Positions 424 through 29,039 of a stretch of 64,000 nt of DNA are shown piece by piece (within the stretch, counting starts at the first letter, position 1; each line of letters begins with the position of its first letter). Source of the DNA: Clostridia bacterium. Its GTDB lineage: Bacteria; Bacillota; Clostridia; Oscillospirales; Acutalibacteraceae. Where the stretch lies: positions 1 through 64,000 of the forward strand of contig JAFUNA010000027.1 in the NCBI GenBank assembly GCA_017473165.1, read 5' to 3'. The notes beneath the pieces are model-generated. The model did not search any database and was not told the DNA's origin. It worked only from the letters and a program-made list of their open reading frames with translations. Made by a program: the position numbers and the translations under genes.

Positions 424-1710
424 TTATCCGACCTGTCTGTCCTCTATGCAATCCTTCATTGCACCGAAAAGGGAAAGGTCGCTGTTGATATCGTATACAT
501 CGCAGGAATAGTGCCAGACCATCATGCCGCCGAGACCTCTGCTCATGGCATAGGCGGTTTTATCGTAGATTGTCTGCCATGAATTAAAATAGGTCTTGCC
601 CTGATCGGTTTCGGTGTAATCAATATCGGCAAGCTTATCTGCGTATTCATTATAATTATACCAGTATGCTCCGCCGTCTGCGGGTCTGCCGTAGAAAGGT
701 ACGCCCAAATCAACTTTTTCTTTCGGAATAAGATTATCCTTAACCGCATTGTATCCGTTCACGGCGGACGTCATTGATGAATGATTTCCTTCGCTGTCAA
801 ACAGGTCATACTGCATAAGTTCCACCAGATCTATAACCTTCATTGCAGAATAGCTCATGCCCAAATCCCATTGCGCAACCGCAAGTCCGATTTTTTTATC
901 CGTTGCTCTGTTGAGTCTGATAAGAAAGCGGCTGAAATCATTCCACGCTTCTTTTTCGATAGGATACTCATAGTCAAAGAATATTCCGTCAAGGTTGTAC
1001 TTTTCAAGAATTTCTGCAATCTGTCCCTCCAGCTTGCGGGTTTTGAAAGCTTTGGAATGTTTCTTTGCCTGATTTGCCATCTGCTCGTTCCAATCCGTTA
1101 TTCCGCTGTCGCTGCCCGGACCGAGAATATTTACATATACATTTACGTTTCTGTTTCCTATTGCATTGCGTACATTTGTAAGTGCAGGCTCGAGCAAGCT
1201 TGTATCGACTTTGATTTCAGCGTTTTCATCAAAGGTTATGCAGCCAAAAACAATTGCATCTGTTACAACATCAAAAACCTCGGGGTTGATTGAATTCGGA
1301 GCGGTTATACTCTGCGAAACAAAATATGAGGTTACTCTGAAATCCTTGTTTTCGTTTTGTTTGAAGCTGACTTTGACTGATTTCACGGCTGCATCGCCCT
1401 TTATTTCAACAGTCAGCTTGTCTGTTTCAACCGTTTCAAACGCACAGAATCTGTATGCATCGCTTGATGAACGGTGATAAATCTGCTCGTTGTTATTACA
1501 GATTTTAACCTCTGCGGGTGCTGCGGTTTCAAGTTCAATTTCAACGGTGTTGACCTTTTGCTTATCAAAAACAATTTCGGATTTGCCGCTGAATTCTGTT
1601 ATTTCTGCAGCTACGGTATTAAGCCCCGTCTCTTCTTCAAAAACAGGAATACCAAAGAATGAACTTACGGCAATTACCGCAGCAAAGATAAATCTTAAAA
1701 TTTTATACAT
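424..1710 (-). CDS. Secreted glycoside hydrolase family 18 (chitinase-like) protein
   Basis: Probable secreted or cell-surface GH18 enzyme of 428 residues. The N-terminus MYKILRFIFAAVIAVSSFFG is a signal peptide. Residues about 40-130 look like a beta-rich domain, and the rest is a GH18 barrel. The family motif DGxxxDxE appears as LDGIFFDYEYP near residues 240-248, with the Glu being the expected acid/base catalyst. An earlier in-frame ATG exists at 1758, but the start at 1710 follows a good AAGGGTGG ribosome binding site and begins exactly at the signal peptide. GH18 proteins cleave beta-1,4-linked GlcNAc polymers; some in spore formers act on cortex peptidoglycan. The substrate here cannot be told. 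The gene is monocistronic and divergent from acn. Confidence 0.8.
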   Translation of the reverse strand: MYKILRFIFAAVIAVSSFFGIPVFEEETGLNTVAAEITEFSGKSEIVFDKQKVNTVEIELETAAPAEVKICNNNEQIYHRSSSDAYRFCAFETVETDKLTVEIKGDAAVKSVKVSFKQNENKDFRVTSYFVSQSITAPNSINPEVFDVVTDAIVFGCITFDENAEIKVDTSLLEPALTNVRNAIGNRNVNVYVNILGPGSDSGITDWNEQMANQAKKHSKAFKTRKLEGQIAEILEKYNLDGIFFDYEYPIEKEAWNDFSRFLIRLNRATDKKIGLAVAQWDLGMSYSAMKVIDLVELMQYDLFDSEGNHSSMTSAVNGYNAVKDNLIPKEKVDLGVPFYGRPADGGAYWYNYNEYADKLADIDYTETDQGKTYFNSWQTIYDKTAYAMSRGLGGMMVWHYSCDVYDINSDLSLFGAMKDCIEDRQVG

Positions 1711-26643: not shown

Positions 26644-27744
26644 TTACTGTTTTTTCATAAAATCCATCAATCCGTGCCAGTCATCACGGCTGAAATAATG
26701 GGTTCCCCTGCGGTAGCAGAATCCTATGCTGCCGTCATTGAGATATTTGTCGGGGTTGAGGAAATCGCCCTCTCCGAAAACAAATCCCTTTTTGCCGTAA
26801 AGCTCATAGACCTCGGATGCCGCCGCACAGCAGAGAAACTGATTTTCGGGGCCCGCCCAGAGATCATTTTCAGCGGAGGCAACGTGCACTCTTCTCGGTG
26901 CAATCAGAGCGTGCATGAAGTGCTGGTCAAAGGGTGTTTCGTTATCCTTATCTCTGAATGACTCGTAATTCTTGCAGAACCAGAATTCAAATCTGTCAAG
27001 AATGTTGCTGATTATTTCACTTTTCGGGAGCTTTCCTCTGTTGAGCGCATCACCGCTGCAGCCTGCACAGTTTGAATGCACAGCCGCAAACCGTTCGTCA
27101 ACAGCACCCGTCAGAAGTGCAGTTTTGCCGAGCCTTGAATGACCGCACACGCAGATGTTTTCCTTGTCAACCTCGTCACGGGTCTGCAGAAAATCCATAA
27201 CCCTCATCGCAGCCCACGCCCACATTGCAATCTTGCCGGGCGAATAATCCGAACGCTCGCAATCCTTATATACCAAGCCTGCAAATCCGTTTGTGAAGTC
27301 GCCGTCGTCGCTTGTTACGTCTTGATAGCAGAACGATGCACAGGCAAAGCCGTTGTCGATTATTTCCTCGGTGGGCATATATTTATCGGGCACGGGAGGT
27401 CTGAAATTAATGTGCACAAAGGTTTTGATTTTTTCGCCCTTTGACGGATAAACATAGTTAACGGGGAACGTGAATTTTTCGCCGTAAACCGTGCTTGTTA
27501 TCTCAAGCTCAATAAAAGTTGCCTTTGAGGCACAGAAACGCTCATCAATATTTTTTATTTCGAAGCTGACATCTTCGGGATTTTCGGGAAGATAGCCGTA
27601 TTCGCATTCGAGCATGGTTTTCATAATCTCGGGTCGGATTTTCTCCCATTCCTCAACGGTTTCTGCTCTTTTTCCGCAAATTTCCAACGCCGACGGAACA
27701 CCGAGCTTTGCAAGCTTTTCTTTAACTGTATCAACCATTTTCAT
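26644..27744 (-). CDS. Alpha/beta-hydrolase, acetylxylan/glucuronoyl esterase-like
   Basis: A 366-residue serine esterase. The nucleophile elbow is CGHSRLGKTALLTGAVDERFAAVHSNCAG near residue 170, close to the G-x-S-R-x-G-K pattern of CE15 glucuronoyl esterases and related plant-cell-wall esterases. No signal peptide is visible, so it may act on imported substrates. A late histidine in RRGTHYFSRDDWHGLMDF is a candidate catalytic base. The start lies among GTG 27747, ATG 27744 and ATG 27738, all near AAAGGA; 27744 is used here. It has its own promoter and terminator and is monocistronic. The substrate is not determined. Confidence 0.7.
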   Translation of the reverse strand: MKMVDTVKEKLAKLGVPSALEICGKRAETVEEWEKIRPEIMKTMLECEYGYLPENPEDVSFEIKNIDERFCASKATFIELEITSTVYGEKFTFPVNYVYPSKGEKIKTFVHINFRPPVPDKYMPTEEIIDNGFACASFCYQDVTSDDGDFTNGFAGLVYKDCERSDYSPGKIAMWAWAAMRVMDFLQTRDEVDKENICVCGHSRLGKTALLTGAVDERFAAVHSNCAGCSGDALNRGKLPKSEIISNILDRFEFWFCKNYESFRDKDNETPFDQHFMHALIAPRRVHVASAENDLWAGPENQFLCCAAASEVYELYGKKGFVFGEGDFLNPDKYLNDGSIGFCYRRGTHYFSRDDWHGLMDFMKKQ

Positions 27745-27762
27745 CACTTCCTTTGCAATTCA

Positions 27763-27790
27763 ATTATAAAACTCCGGCAGCTTTTGTCAA
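27763..27790 (-). promoter_or_regulatory. Consensus promoter of the esterase gene
   Basis: Minus strand TTGACA (27785-27790), 16-bp spacer, TATAAT (27763-27768), about 25 bp before the start codon. The -35 overlaps the T run that ends the non-coding unit upstream, so the two transcription units are packed back to back. Confidence 0.7.
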
Positions 27791-27823
27791 CAAAAAATTA
27801 AGACCGTACATTTTTGCACGGTC
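27790..27823 (-). terminator. Intrinsic terminator of the non-coding transcription unit
   Basis: On the minus strand GACCGTGC-AAAAAT-GTACGGTC (27802-27823, one G-T pair) is followed by TTAATTTTTTG. The outer GAC of the stem is shared with the 3' arm of a 16-bp upstream pairing, so the two structures compete at their edge. Confidence 0.75.
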
Positions 27824-28318
27824 AAAATAAATTAATATTTAGTTTTTCCCGCTCACAGCCGCATTCCGATTTTTAACGAATCAATTCCGTCATGCTTTGC
27901 GGCTTAATCGGTTCCCTTATGTCAATTAATTTATTTTGACTGATTTCACCGTTAATTTCCGCTTTTGTTACTTATCGGATTCTGCGGCTGCAAGCTGATG
28001 TTCTGCTGAGTACATCGGGTATCGCCGCCTTTCTTTTATTCACTTTGCCACATTTTTGACTTCTGACTTTCAAATATATGGTCAAGAGGGATTTAACTTT
28101 AGGAATAACCTGTTCAGACCTTTGTGAAAAAGCTTTACGAACTTTAACGAATTGAAGATTGATTAATTTTTGCTGTTAATCTTTTTCAACTCCGAAAAAT
28201 CATTTGCAAATTTTTTTATTTTCTCTTTTTCGATTTTTCTTTTTCGGTTGTCTTTTTCATCAGGCTTTCTCGTCACCCGATTTGAGGTCTTTTTTGTTTT
28301 CCTTCAGTTCCTTTCCTC
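27796..28318 (-). ncRNA. Candidate large structured non-coding RNA, about 520 nt
   Basis: Bounded by an extended -10 promoter (28325-28353) and an intrinsic terminator, with no convincing gene between. Complementary segments on the minus strand, given as plus coordinates: 28275-28281 with 28259-28265; 28240-28247 with 28192-28199 (8 bp); 28181-28188 with 28125-28132 (8 bp); 28176-28181 with 28161-28166; 27974-27990 with 27856-27870 (14 pairs in two blocks); 27925-27940 with 27821-27836 (16 bp, perfect). The last two interleave, giving a pseudoknot or two alternative folds. Size and layout recall large RNAs such as ROOL, GOLLD or OLE, but I cannot match it to any of them; it could also be a long regulatory RNA of unknown class. 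Confidence 0.55.
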
Positions 28319-28324
28319 GACTAT

Positions 28325-28353
28325 AATATACCACACGCTTTGGCACTTGTCAA
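28325..28353 (-). promoter_or_regulatory. Extended -10 sigma-A promoter of the non-coding unit
   Basis: Minus strand TTGACA (28348-28353), 17-bp spacer ending in TGG, TATATT (28325-28330). The TGn extension and consensus -35 predict strong constitutive transcription starting near 28318, comparable to the promoter at 103-131. Confidence 0.75.
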
Positions 28354-28412
28354 TAGTTTTTTTCGAAAAAGTTGAAAACTTTTAGATATTTTTTACCTAT
28401 ATCGATTTTCTA

Positions 28413-28441
28413 TTGACTAAAAGCAAAGTTGGAGTTAAAAT
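28413..28441 (+). promoter_or_regulatory. Promoter of the DUF1292 gene
   Basis: TTGACT (28413-28418), 17-bp spacer, TAAAAT (28436-28441), 33 bp before the start codon. It is divergent from the promoter of the non-coding unit. Confidence 0.6.
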
Positions 28442-28474
28442 ATAAACGTAGTAATTGAAAGGAACAGAAATCCC

Positions 28475-28777
28475 ATGAATAATGAAGAATATACTCCCGA
28501 TATCGTCAGCATCGTTGACGAAGAAGGCAAAGAACACATTTTTGAAGAGCTTGACAGAATCGAAATGGACACAGGCAGATACGTTGCACTTCTTCCCCTG
28601 CCCGAATCGCCCGACAAAATAACCGAGGATGACAACGAGCTCATAATTCTCAAGGTTGAAGAAGAAAACGGCGAAACCTATCTCTGTCCCATCGAAAACG
28701 ACGAGGAATTCAACGAAGTGGGTCAGGCATTTGAAGAAAGACTTGCCGAAATGTTCGATTTCGAGGAAGAAGAATAA
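28475..28777 (+). CDS. DUF1292 family acidic protein (YrzB-like)
   Basis: A 100-residue very acidic protein of the DUF1292 family (PDIVSIVDEEGKEHIFEELDRIEMDTGRYVAL, ILKVEEENGETYLCPIENDEEF). Function unknown; in Bacillus yrzB lies in the yrzL-yrrK-yrzB operon near the alanyl-tRNA synthetase gene. Here it stands alone with its own promoter, directly upstream of the 6S RNA. The start has AAAGGAACAG upstream. Confidence 0.88.
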   Translation: MNNEEYTPDIVSIVDEEGKEHIFEELDRIEMDTGRYVALLPLPESPDKITEDDNELIILKVEEENGETYLCPIENDEEFNEVGQAFEERLAEMFDFEEEE

Positions 28778-28812: not shown

Positions 28813-28814
28813 AA

Positions 28815-29014
28815 ATTCCCTGCCTTGTGCGAAAAATTTGCAGTCAATATGTAACCCAACACACACTAAACGGGAGCCTTGCTCCGGTGGCGGATTGCAG
28901 ACCTCCCGCCGAAGCTCTTGAGGCTTTGGCGGACGAAGGGAGCGTGAAAGCATCGGGCGGCACCCACCTGCTATGAGAGCAGGTTACAATCGGCTGCATA
29001 CGGCTTGGCGGGGT
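28815..29014 (+). ncRNA. ssrS: 6S RNA
   Basis: About 200 nt with the 6S architecture. The closing stem pairs CCCTGCC...GTGC at the 5' end with GCAT...GGCGGGG at the 3' end, next to TTTATTTTT as terminator. A central bubble contains GGAG-CCTTG-CTCC on the 5' side and ACCTGCT-ATGAG-AGCAGGT on the 3' side within CACCCACC...GGTTACAATCGGC, resembling the conserved CACCTTG...GGTTACA segment of 6S. The apical arm is CCGCC-AAGC/GCTT-GGCGG with flanking CTCCC/GGGAG. 6S mimics an open promoter and holds sigma-A RNA polymerase in stationary phase. I recognise it by structure and motif, without a covariance search. Confidence 0.72.
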
Positions 29015-29039
29015 TTATTTTTCCATGGAGGAAAGAACG

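Follow-up and report, generated by a model that had tools for sequence, protein, structure and literature searches.

What is encoded on the minus strand between a glucuronyl-esterase-like gene and a divergent DUF1292 gene in the 64,000-nt stretch of Clostridia DNA analyzed here (the window)? The original prediction placed at this position a possible new, large, structured RNA, equipped with a promoter and a terminator of its own, and saw no convincing gene within it. The RNA is supported by its fold, by covariation among 17 homologs, and by the lack of an Rfam match. As judged from sequence, the RNA gene is an independent minus-strand unit, extending from approximately 28318 to 27798, and the anatomy of the unit is well supported; transcription, translation, and function of the RNA are inferred. 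The finding is real, and it is larger than was first described. The unit and its neighbors are arranged as follows.

26644–27747, minus strand: glucuronyl-esterase-like gene, downstream of the RNA in the window
27763–27790, minus strand: promoter of the downstream gene, a 12/12 match, directly behind the RNA terminator
27798–28318, minus strand: predicted transcript of ~520 nt, its ends taken from the promoter and terminator positions
27802–27823, minus strand: intrinsic terminator, GACCGTGC-AAAAA-TGTACGGTC, with a U-rich tail to about 27795
28325–28353, minus strand: promoter, with -35 TTGACA (28353–28348), a 17-nt spacer, -10 TATATT (28330–28325), and TG before the -10
28475–28777, plus strand: DUF1292 (PF06949) gene, the divergent neighbor and a locus marker across genera
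28814–29018, plus strand: 6S RNA (RF00013), 54.9 bits, on the far side of DUF1292

Homologs were sought by BLAST with 524 bases of the region against 45 genomes of the genus, the window's own included. Matches were obtained in 19 genomes, and 17 of these contained the conserved core (query positions of about 226–519); G016 and G038, which matched just A-rich pieces of 26–34 bases, were left out of the 17. No core was found by BLAST in 28 of the 45 genomes, and for G002, G007, and G016 (each at least 96% complete) the covariance model was also negative, indicating that the RNA is not universal even within the genus. The RNA region is single-copy in its genome.

The extended -10 promoter that had been predicted (TTGACA-17-TATATT with TG, 28353–28325, minus strand) is near consensus, matching at 11 of 12 positions in a promoter scan of the window, and the predicted intrinsic terminator was recovered by a scan as a hairpin of 9 pairs with a U-rich tail (27823–27802, minus strand). 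Because such scans expect 2.9 promoter-like and 2.5 terminator-like sites by chance per 2 kb, the weight of the two signals lies in their conservation in relatives. The TTGACA promoter was present at the expected place in all 17 genus homologs, and a terminator was called by script in 16, that of the 17th (L015) being seen by eye in the sequence. From the shared start motif to the terminator, the RNAs of the relatives measure 336–445 nt. An A-rich tract lies immediately 5' of the -35 element (about 28354–28364, minus strand); such a tract precedes TTGAC in 17/17 RNAs of the genus and, with slightly different patterns, in 14 of 26 RNAs from other genera. A-tracts upstream of the -35 element also occur in strong promoters, for example rRNA promoters.

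The DUF1292 gene adjoins the RNA in 16 of the 17 genus loci, 6S RNA lies beyond DUF1292 in the seven genus loci that were scanned (7/7), and the order 6S–DUF1292–new RNA repeats in the loci scanned. The exception is L016 (G027:C90), in which sequence resembling the end of a tyrosine integrase stands before the RNA promoter, where DUF1292 would be expected; L017 carries an RNA near-identical to that of L016, but with DUF1292. L016 may thus represent a mobile-element junction or an assembly effect. Near the 6S RNA of L002, two sub-threshold matches to Gut-1 RNA were observed at 798–944 (plus strand; 33 bits against a gathering score of 50).

The gene 3' of the terminator varies among the 17 genus loci, being esterase-like in 3, recJ-like in 9 (a label based on Pfam for one locus and on BLAST for the other eight), and of other kinds in 5. 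This bears upon the reading of the RNA as a leader or attenuator of the downstream gene. The downstream gene shares the strand of the RNA in the window, and the frequency of recJ-like genes is in keeping with such a role, but the RNA ends in a terminator, the downstream gene in the window has its own 12/12 promoter (27790–27763), and no one gene is constant at this position. We therefore consider a leader improbable.

The region folds strongly, as had been predicted. The minimum free energy of 27795–28318 (minus strand) is -135, compared to -94.6 (sd 5.2) for 100 dinucleotide shuffles (z = -7.76), none of which was as good. The following elements of the fold were defined, all on the minus strand.

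28086–28318: 5' domain, with the conserved start CGAGGAAAGG; GAGG (28315–28318) can pair with CCTC (28086–28089)
28056–28085: P2 hairpin, TTGACC (28080–28085) with AGTCAA/GGTCAA (28056–28061)
27997–28016: start-codon hairpin, GATGT (28012–28016) with ACATC (27997–28001)
27851–27995: P3, a long-range helix in which ORF codons pair with a 3' segment, with covariation
27984–27995/27851–27862: P3a, part of P3
27974–27979/27865–27870: P3b, part of P3
27899–27962: P4 stem, 27959–27962 and 27948–27955 with 27899–27912, enclosing P5
27936–27942 with 27920–27925: P5, inside P4
27875–27891: P6 hairpin, about GACG (27888–27891) with CGTT (27875–27878)
27834–27845: A/T-rich element on the 3' side, AAACTAAATATT; the relatives have AAATTGAATAT here

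Covariation was analyzed in an alignment of the core from 17 sequences (A2), a check that the original prediction had proposed. The named helices are paired in 88.1% of the cells of this alignment, compared to 30–39% for slid structures. Two-sided changes were found in 17 of 41 pairs and in 43 cells, compared to 8.9 pairs and 13.1 cells (sd 2.7) in shuffles, with 0 of 500 shuffles doing as well; the count of further pair types (39) showed no excess over shuffles (38.0; 192/500). Support from covariation is strongest for P3b, P4, P5, and P6. The aligned P6 columns are unpaired in the window species, the pairing given above being read by eye one shift away. P3a, with 12 pairs, is paired in 100% of cells, mostly by invariant or wobble pairs, and P2 shows little covariation because its sequence is nearly invariant. 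There are no two-sided changes in the start-codon hairpin, so covariation is no proof of that element. The GAGG/CCTC pairing closes a hairpin domain of varying length, about 230 nt in the window and 53–140 nt up to CCTC in the relatives. The start CGAGGAAAG is conserved across the 17 genus core loci, one of which has TGAGGAAAG, and, among the 26 RNAs of other genera, 12 have AATTGAATA of the 3' A/T-rich element.

Two helices had been singled out in the original prediction as forming a pseudoknot or alternative folds. The helix of 14 pairs (27974–27990/27856–27870) falls on the conserved P3 (P3a and P3b). The 16-bp helix is strong in the window species (duplex energy of -15.8, compared to -5.7 with sd 2.0 for shuffles), but nothing comparable was present in the 16 relatives tested. 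The pseudoknot depends on the 16-bp helix, which was seen in the window species only; of the two helices it is the 14-pair one that is conserved.

We compared the RNA to known families. At the gathering score of Rfam 15, 6S was the sole match in the whole window; at E ≤ 10, matches within 27700–28500 were at chance level at most, in agreement with the expectation that no ordinary known RNA would be found; and Rfam scans of 7 genus loci and 12 other loci gave no match to the RNA. By these scans, Rfam 15 does not include the RNA family. Membership in ROOL, GOLLD, OLE, or raiA was rejected by the lack of a covariance-model match (Rfam 15). The RNA resembles these as a large structured Firmicutes RNA with its own transcription unit, but the likeness to ROOL, GOLLD, and OLE suggested originally goes no further: its conserved core is smaller, it has translation start modules, and what is conserved at its center is a site for translation initiation followed by a very short ORF. 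Membership in 6S was likewise rejected, RF00013 matching just the neighbor at 28814–29018 (plus strand).

Housekeeping RNAs were also considered. Like tmRNA, the RNA is structured with a short internal ORF, which would favor a divergent copy of such an RNA, but RF00023 had no match in it, it has no tRNA-like match, and it has its own start codon and Shine-Dalgarno sequence; ARAGORN found no tRNA and no tmRNA in the whole window, and a tmRNA scoring over the cut-off is found elsewhere in the genome. The start of the RNA, GAGGAAAG, resembles the RNase P core. RF00010 and RF00011, however, had no match in the RNA, and RNase P type A was found over the cut-off at other places in 32 of the 45 genus genomes, RNA bearers included, although not in the window's own assembly, which is 88% complete. 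Both tmRNA and RNase P are rejected, and derivation of the RNA from a divergent copy of either is extremely improbable.

One part of the original prediction that must be reversed concerns coding. Rather than lacking a convincing gene, the RNA contains a conserved ORF of 15–16 codons behind a strong Shine-Dalgarno sequence in 17/17 homologs.

28025–28034, minus strand: Shine-Dalgarno sequence, AGAAAGGCGG, with AAAGGCGG identical in 17/17
27968–28015, minus strand: short ORF, ATG...TAA, 15 codons, MYSAEHQLAAAESDK

The start signal has the layout AGAAAGGCGG-N8/9-ATG-TAC within the genus, and the ORF is intact in every homolog, ending in TAA (12) or TGA (5). The Shine-Dalgarno sequence is predicted to be mostly open in the genus (mean unpaired 0.65, 76th percentile of its RNA) and the start codon mostly closed (mean unpaired 0.29). 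By eye, a pairing also seems feasible between GGCGGC in the Shine-Dalgarno region and GCCGC in the ORF. From about its eighth codon on, the ORF is the 5' side of P3; because these later codons form the 5' strand, passage of a ribosome and formation of P3 are mutually exclusive.

RNAs at the corresponding position, oriented divergently from DUF1292, also occur in other genera and in a second family; they bear a single module or several (about AAAGGnGGTGAGTCC-RATG). In the proposed module, a Shine-Dalgarno sequence is joined by a fixed spacer (GA-N-TCC or GAT-N-CC) to the start codon of a very short ORF. A script was run on 116 DUF1292-upstream regions of the order to find those in which a divergent promoter precedes a module and an ORF of ≤25 codons. 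Promoter and module were found in 30 of the 116 regions on the right strand; the opposite strand gave 1, and first-order Markov sequence predicts 0.6. The positives came from f1 (21/69 regions) and f22 (9/9 regions, 8 genomes), with none in ten other families (0/38). From these 30 we kept 26 RNAs (18 of f1 and 8 of f22), dropping L181, which shares its genome with L129, and L150, L154, and L169, which were doubtful by eye.

The module repeats within an RNA as AAAG-G(n)-GTGAGTCC-RATG, up to five times (L156) and more if start-less units are counted. In 31 regions, partly chosen with a related pattern, 71 spacer-defined units were found on the RNA strand and 3 on the other. The exact module RRRGTGAGTCCRATG had 18 matches in 25 such genomes, 17 of them at the DUF1292 locus, and its reversed control had 0. 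The module spacer was found at 19 of 25 first-ORF starts, compared to 3 of 165 ordinary Shine-Dalgarno gene starts in the same loci. Modules of the other genera are predicted to be slightly more exposed than average (unpaired 0.49, 60th percentile). Duplex energy with the 16S tail was -14.8 for 48 modules and -10.8 for the 165 ordinary starts, which we treat as a hint because the selecting pattern already contains part of the complement and the letters of the tail were assumed.

The ORFs of these modules are short. Among the 71 spacer-defined modules, 42 have NTG, 11 have AAG, and 18 have neither; 18 of the 42 NTG modules have ORFs of 2 codons and 9 have ORFs of 3 (27 together), and in 8 of the 11 AAG modules a stop follows after 2–3 codons. 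AAG or start-less modules with the spacer kept were observed in L148, L161, L173, and L124, several with a stop after 2–3 codons. The 26 RNAs have 48 modules, and 29 of these have mini-ORFs of 2–3 codons before the stop; 5.9 are expected from shuffled downstream sequence, or 7.1 after correction for the 25-codon limit. The pattern used by the script for these module counts had also selected the RNAs. Codon 2 is TAC in 12 of 30 ORFs of ≤4 codons. In 7 of the 24 RNAs with a scripted terminator (L083, L089, L101, L124, L134, L156, and L159), the last mini-ORF start codon lies 16–21 nt before the terminator hairpin, which is closer than a ribosome footprint would leave free.

These data bear upon three other explanations. 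In the first, the RNA would be purely structural and noncoding, the ORF arising incidentally from a conserved motif, GGAAAGGCGGCGATACCCGATGTAC, with some other binding partner. Conservation does exceed coding need (AAAGGCGG, CCGATGTAC) and 29 of the 71 modules lack NTG, but the in-frame stop after 15–16 codons in 17/17 homologs, the mini-ORF lengths far off chance, and the stops in the AAG modules (8/11) make this explanation unlikely. In the second, the RNA would act by structure or base-pairing and its ORF would encode a functional micropeptide, as in dual-function small RNAs such as SgrS/SgrT and RNAIII (PMC5521070). Like SgrS, RNAIII, and SR1, it is a regulatory-type RNA with a small ORF and a Shine-Dalgarno sequence, and it combines an independent transcription unit with a conserved ORF, retained in 17/17 of the genus; first ORFs across genera share residues (Y at position 2 in 10/25, E at position 4 in 17/25). 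Here, in contrast to these systems, the second half of the ORF is held in a covarying long-range helix and the relatives bear tandem ORFs of 2–3 codons. Frames 0 and 1 of the first ORF are equally conserved (z of 13.1 and 13.6), a comparison by which peptide and RNA conservation are inseparable; codon 3 varies freely within the genus; and many modules elsewhere encode just 2–3 residues. A functional micropeptide is on this evidence rather unlikely. In the third, the abundant AGGA/GGA motifs would make the RNA a CsrA sponge of the CsrB type, with its repeated GGA motifs. CsrA (PF02599) was found in 1 of 25 RNA-bearing genomes and not in that of the window, with E. coli and B. subtilis controls positive; a sponge is rejected on this basis, and we consider it very improbable.

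The wider distribution of the RNA was examined with several searches. Covariance model R1 found L059 (45.6 bits) and L051 (49 bits, mostly module) beyond its training set. Against 398 family genomes it gave four strong matches in the genus and eleven weak ones (19–22.8 bits) outside; three of the eleven (L064, L068, and L074) have the promoter, module, short ORF, and adjoining DUF1292, and are homologs by eye, while L073, without DUF1292, is doubtful and the rest resembled coding or unrelated DNA. Records with the core motif comprised 26 stretches, 18 from uncultured Clostridia or Oscillospiraceae of ruminant and horse gut and 8 from outside Clostridia, set aside by name. The window RNA had no match in 50,697 phage records, nor the core pattern in viral contigs. 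A class-wide pattern search gave matches in 27 of 391 genomes and 7 control matches, and the contexts inspected included ordinary gene starts, coding sequence, and promoter-near mini-ORFs; because the matches include ordinary starts and coding sequence, a spread of modules beyond f1 and f22 is suggestive only. In L228, G742 (f51), an GGAGTGAGTCCAATG-AGT-GAG-TAA mini-ORF lies between a promoter and an hsp20-like gene, and modules may thus serve as upstream ORFs of protein genes. L227 and L229 (f51) have short units with a first mini-ORF of MTK* or MAK* and a last ORF of MEDIPPK* or MEGNPPK* that lies a few bases before a terminator-like hairpin; these are possible distant members.

We favor, at a probability of about one half, the reading that these are an uncatalogued class of independently transcribed structured Clostridia RNAs with ribosome-loading modules, which would regulate through ribosome engagement. 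What the sequences show is an independent unit with conserved structure, conserved signals for starting translation, and ORFs of about 2–25 codons. The RNA would be strongly transcribed, 30S subunits would load at the exposed Shine-Dalgarno sequence, and ribosomes would start and, after between one and about twenty peptide bonds, stop; the likeliest effect would be regulation through ribosome occupancy. In the genus of the window, a ribosome on the 15-codon ORF would have to open P3, which is paired to the second half of the ORF, making the RNA a two-state device, folded without ribosomes and opened by them. Translation and the fold being mutually exclusive, the RNA could therefore report or buffer the state of translation initiation in trans. 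In relatives with more than one module, each RNA would act in this way on several ribosomes, as a carrier of idling ribosomes.

Several observations count against this reading. In the genus of the window, the start codon is predicted to be mostly paired, and the modules of other genera are exposed barely above average. The equal conservation of frames 0 and 1 gives no signal of selection on a peptide, some modules lack a normal start codon (11 AAG and 18 neither, of 71), the scripts for the module counts used a pattern that also picked the RNAs, and the core is unmatched by BLAST in most genomes of the genus (28/45).

A further possibility, which we consider doubtful, draws on the neighboring 6S RNA. 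6S RNA is a decoy for RNA polymerase, and the new RNA may be its translational counterpart, a ribosome decoy. The two are neighbors across DUF1292 and would both be decoys for a central machine, but they are separate genes of different sequence and fold, and the site mimicked would be a translation start rather than a promoter. From a strong promoter with its A-tract, the cell would produce an RNA resembling translation start sites. Base-paired with the entire single-stranded 16S tail, this RNA would keep 30S or 70S ribosomes on ORFs too short for a protein, or cycle them there, and would thereby adjust the supply of free ribosomes to growth. In the window's genus, the RNA would have one such site, and ribosomes would have to open its fold.

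Lambda bar minigenes consist of a start, one sense codon, and a stop, and their translation traps peptidyl-tRNA (PMC8012679). In other genera, 29 of 48 modules resemble these minigenes, a Shine-Dalgarno sequence being followed by a start codon, one or two more codons, and a stop; the 15-codon ORF of the window does not. Lambda bar comprises a small number of phage coding sites. In the present case, a chromosomal structured RNA conserved over genera carries several mini-ORFs and, unlike lambda bar, has its own promoter and terminator, and codon 2 is mostly TAC rather than the AUA of lambda bar. The role of the RNA could be to report ribosome supply, to hide ribosomes, to starve a tRNA in the manner of lambda bar (PMC8012679), or to make a peptide.

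A literature search of open-access full texts, covering noncoding RNAs with mini-ORFs, ribosome decoys, intergenic RNAs at DUF1292/6S, and surveys of structured RNAs, turned up no description of such an RNA. Fremin and Bhatt list 3161 candidate RNAs in supplements (PMC8040213), and parts of the RNA may be among these candidates; with that reservation, the design appears new in kind. If the favored reading is true, there is a class of chromosomal RNAs made of translation start sites without genes behind them. This would represent a new mode of global translation control, adjoining a known decoy of RNA polymerase, in dominant and little-studied gut bacteria. ORFs of 2–20 codons can form the conserved core of a structured RNA, and RNA annotation and gene annotation both overlook such elements.
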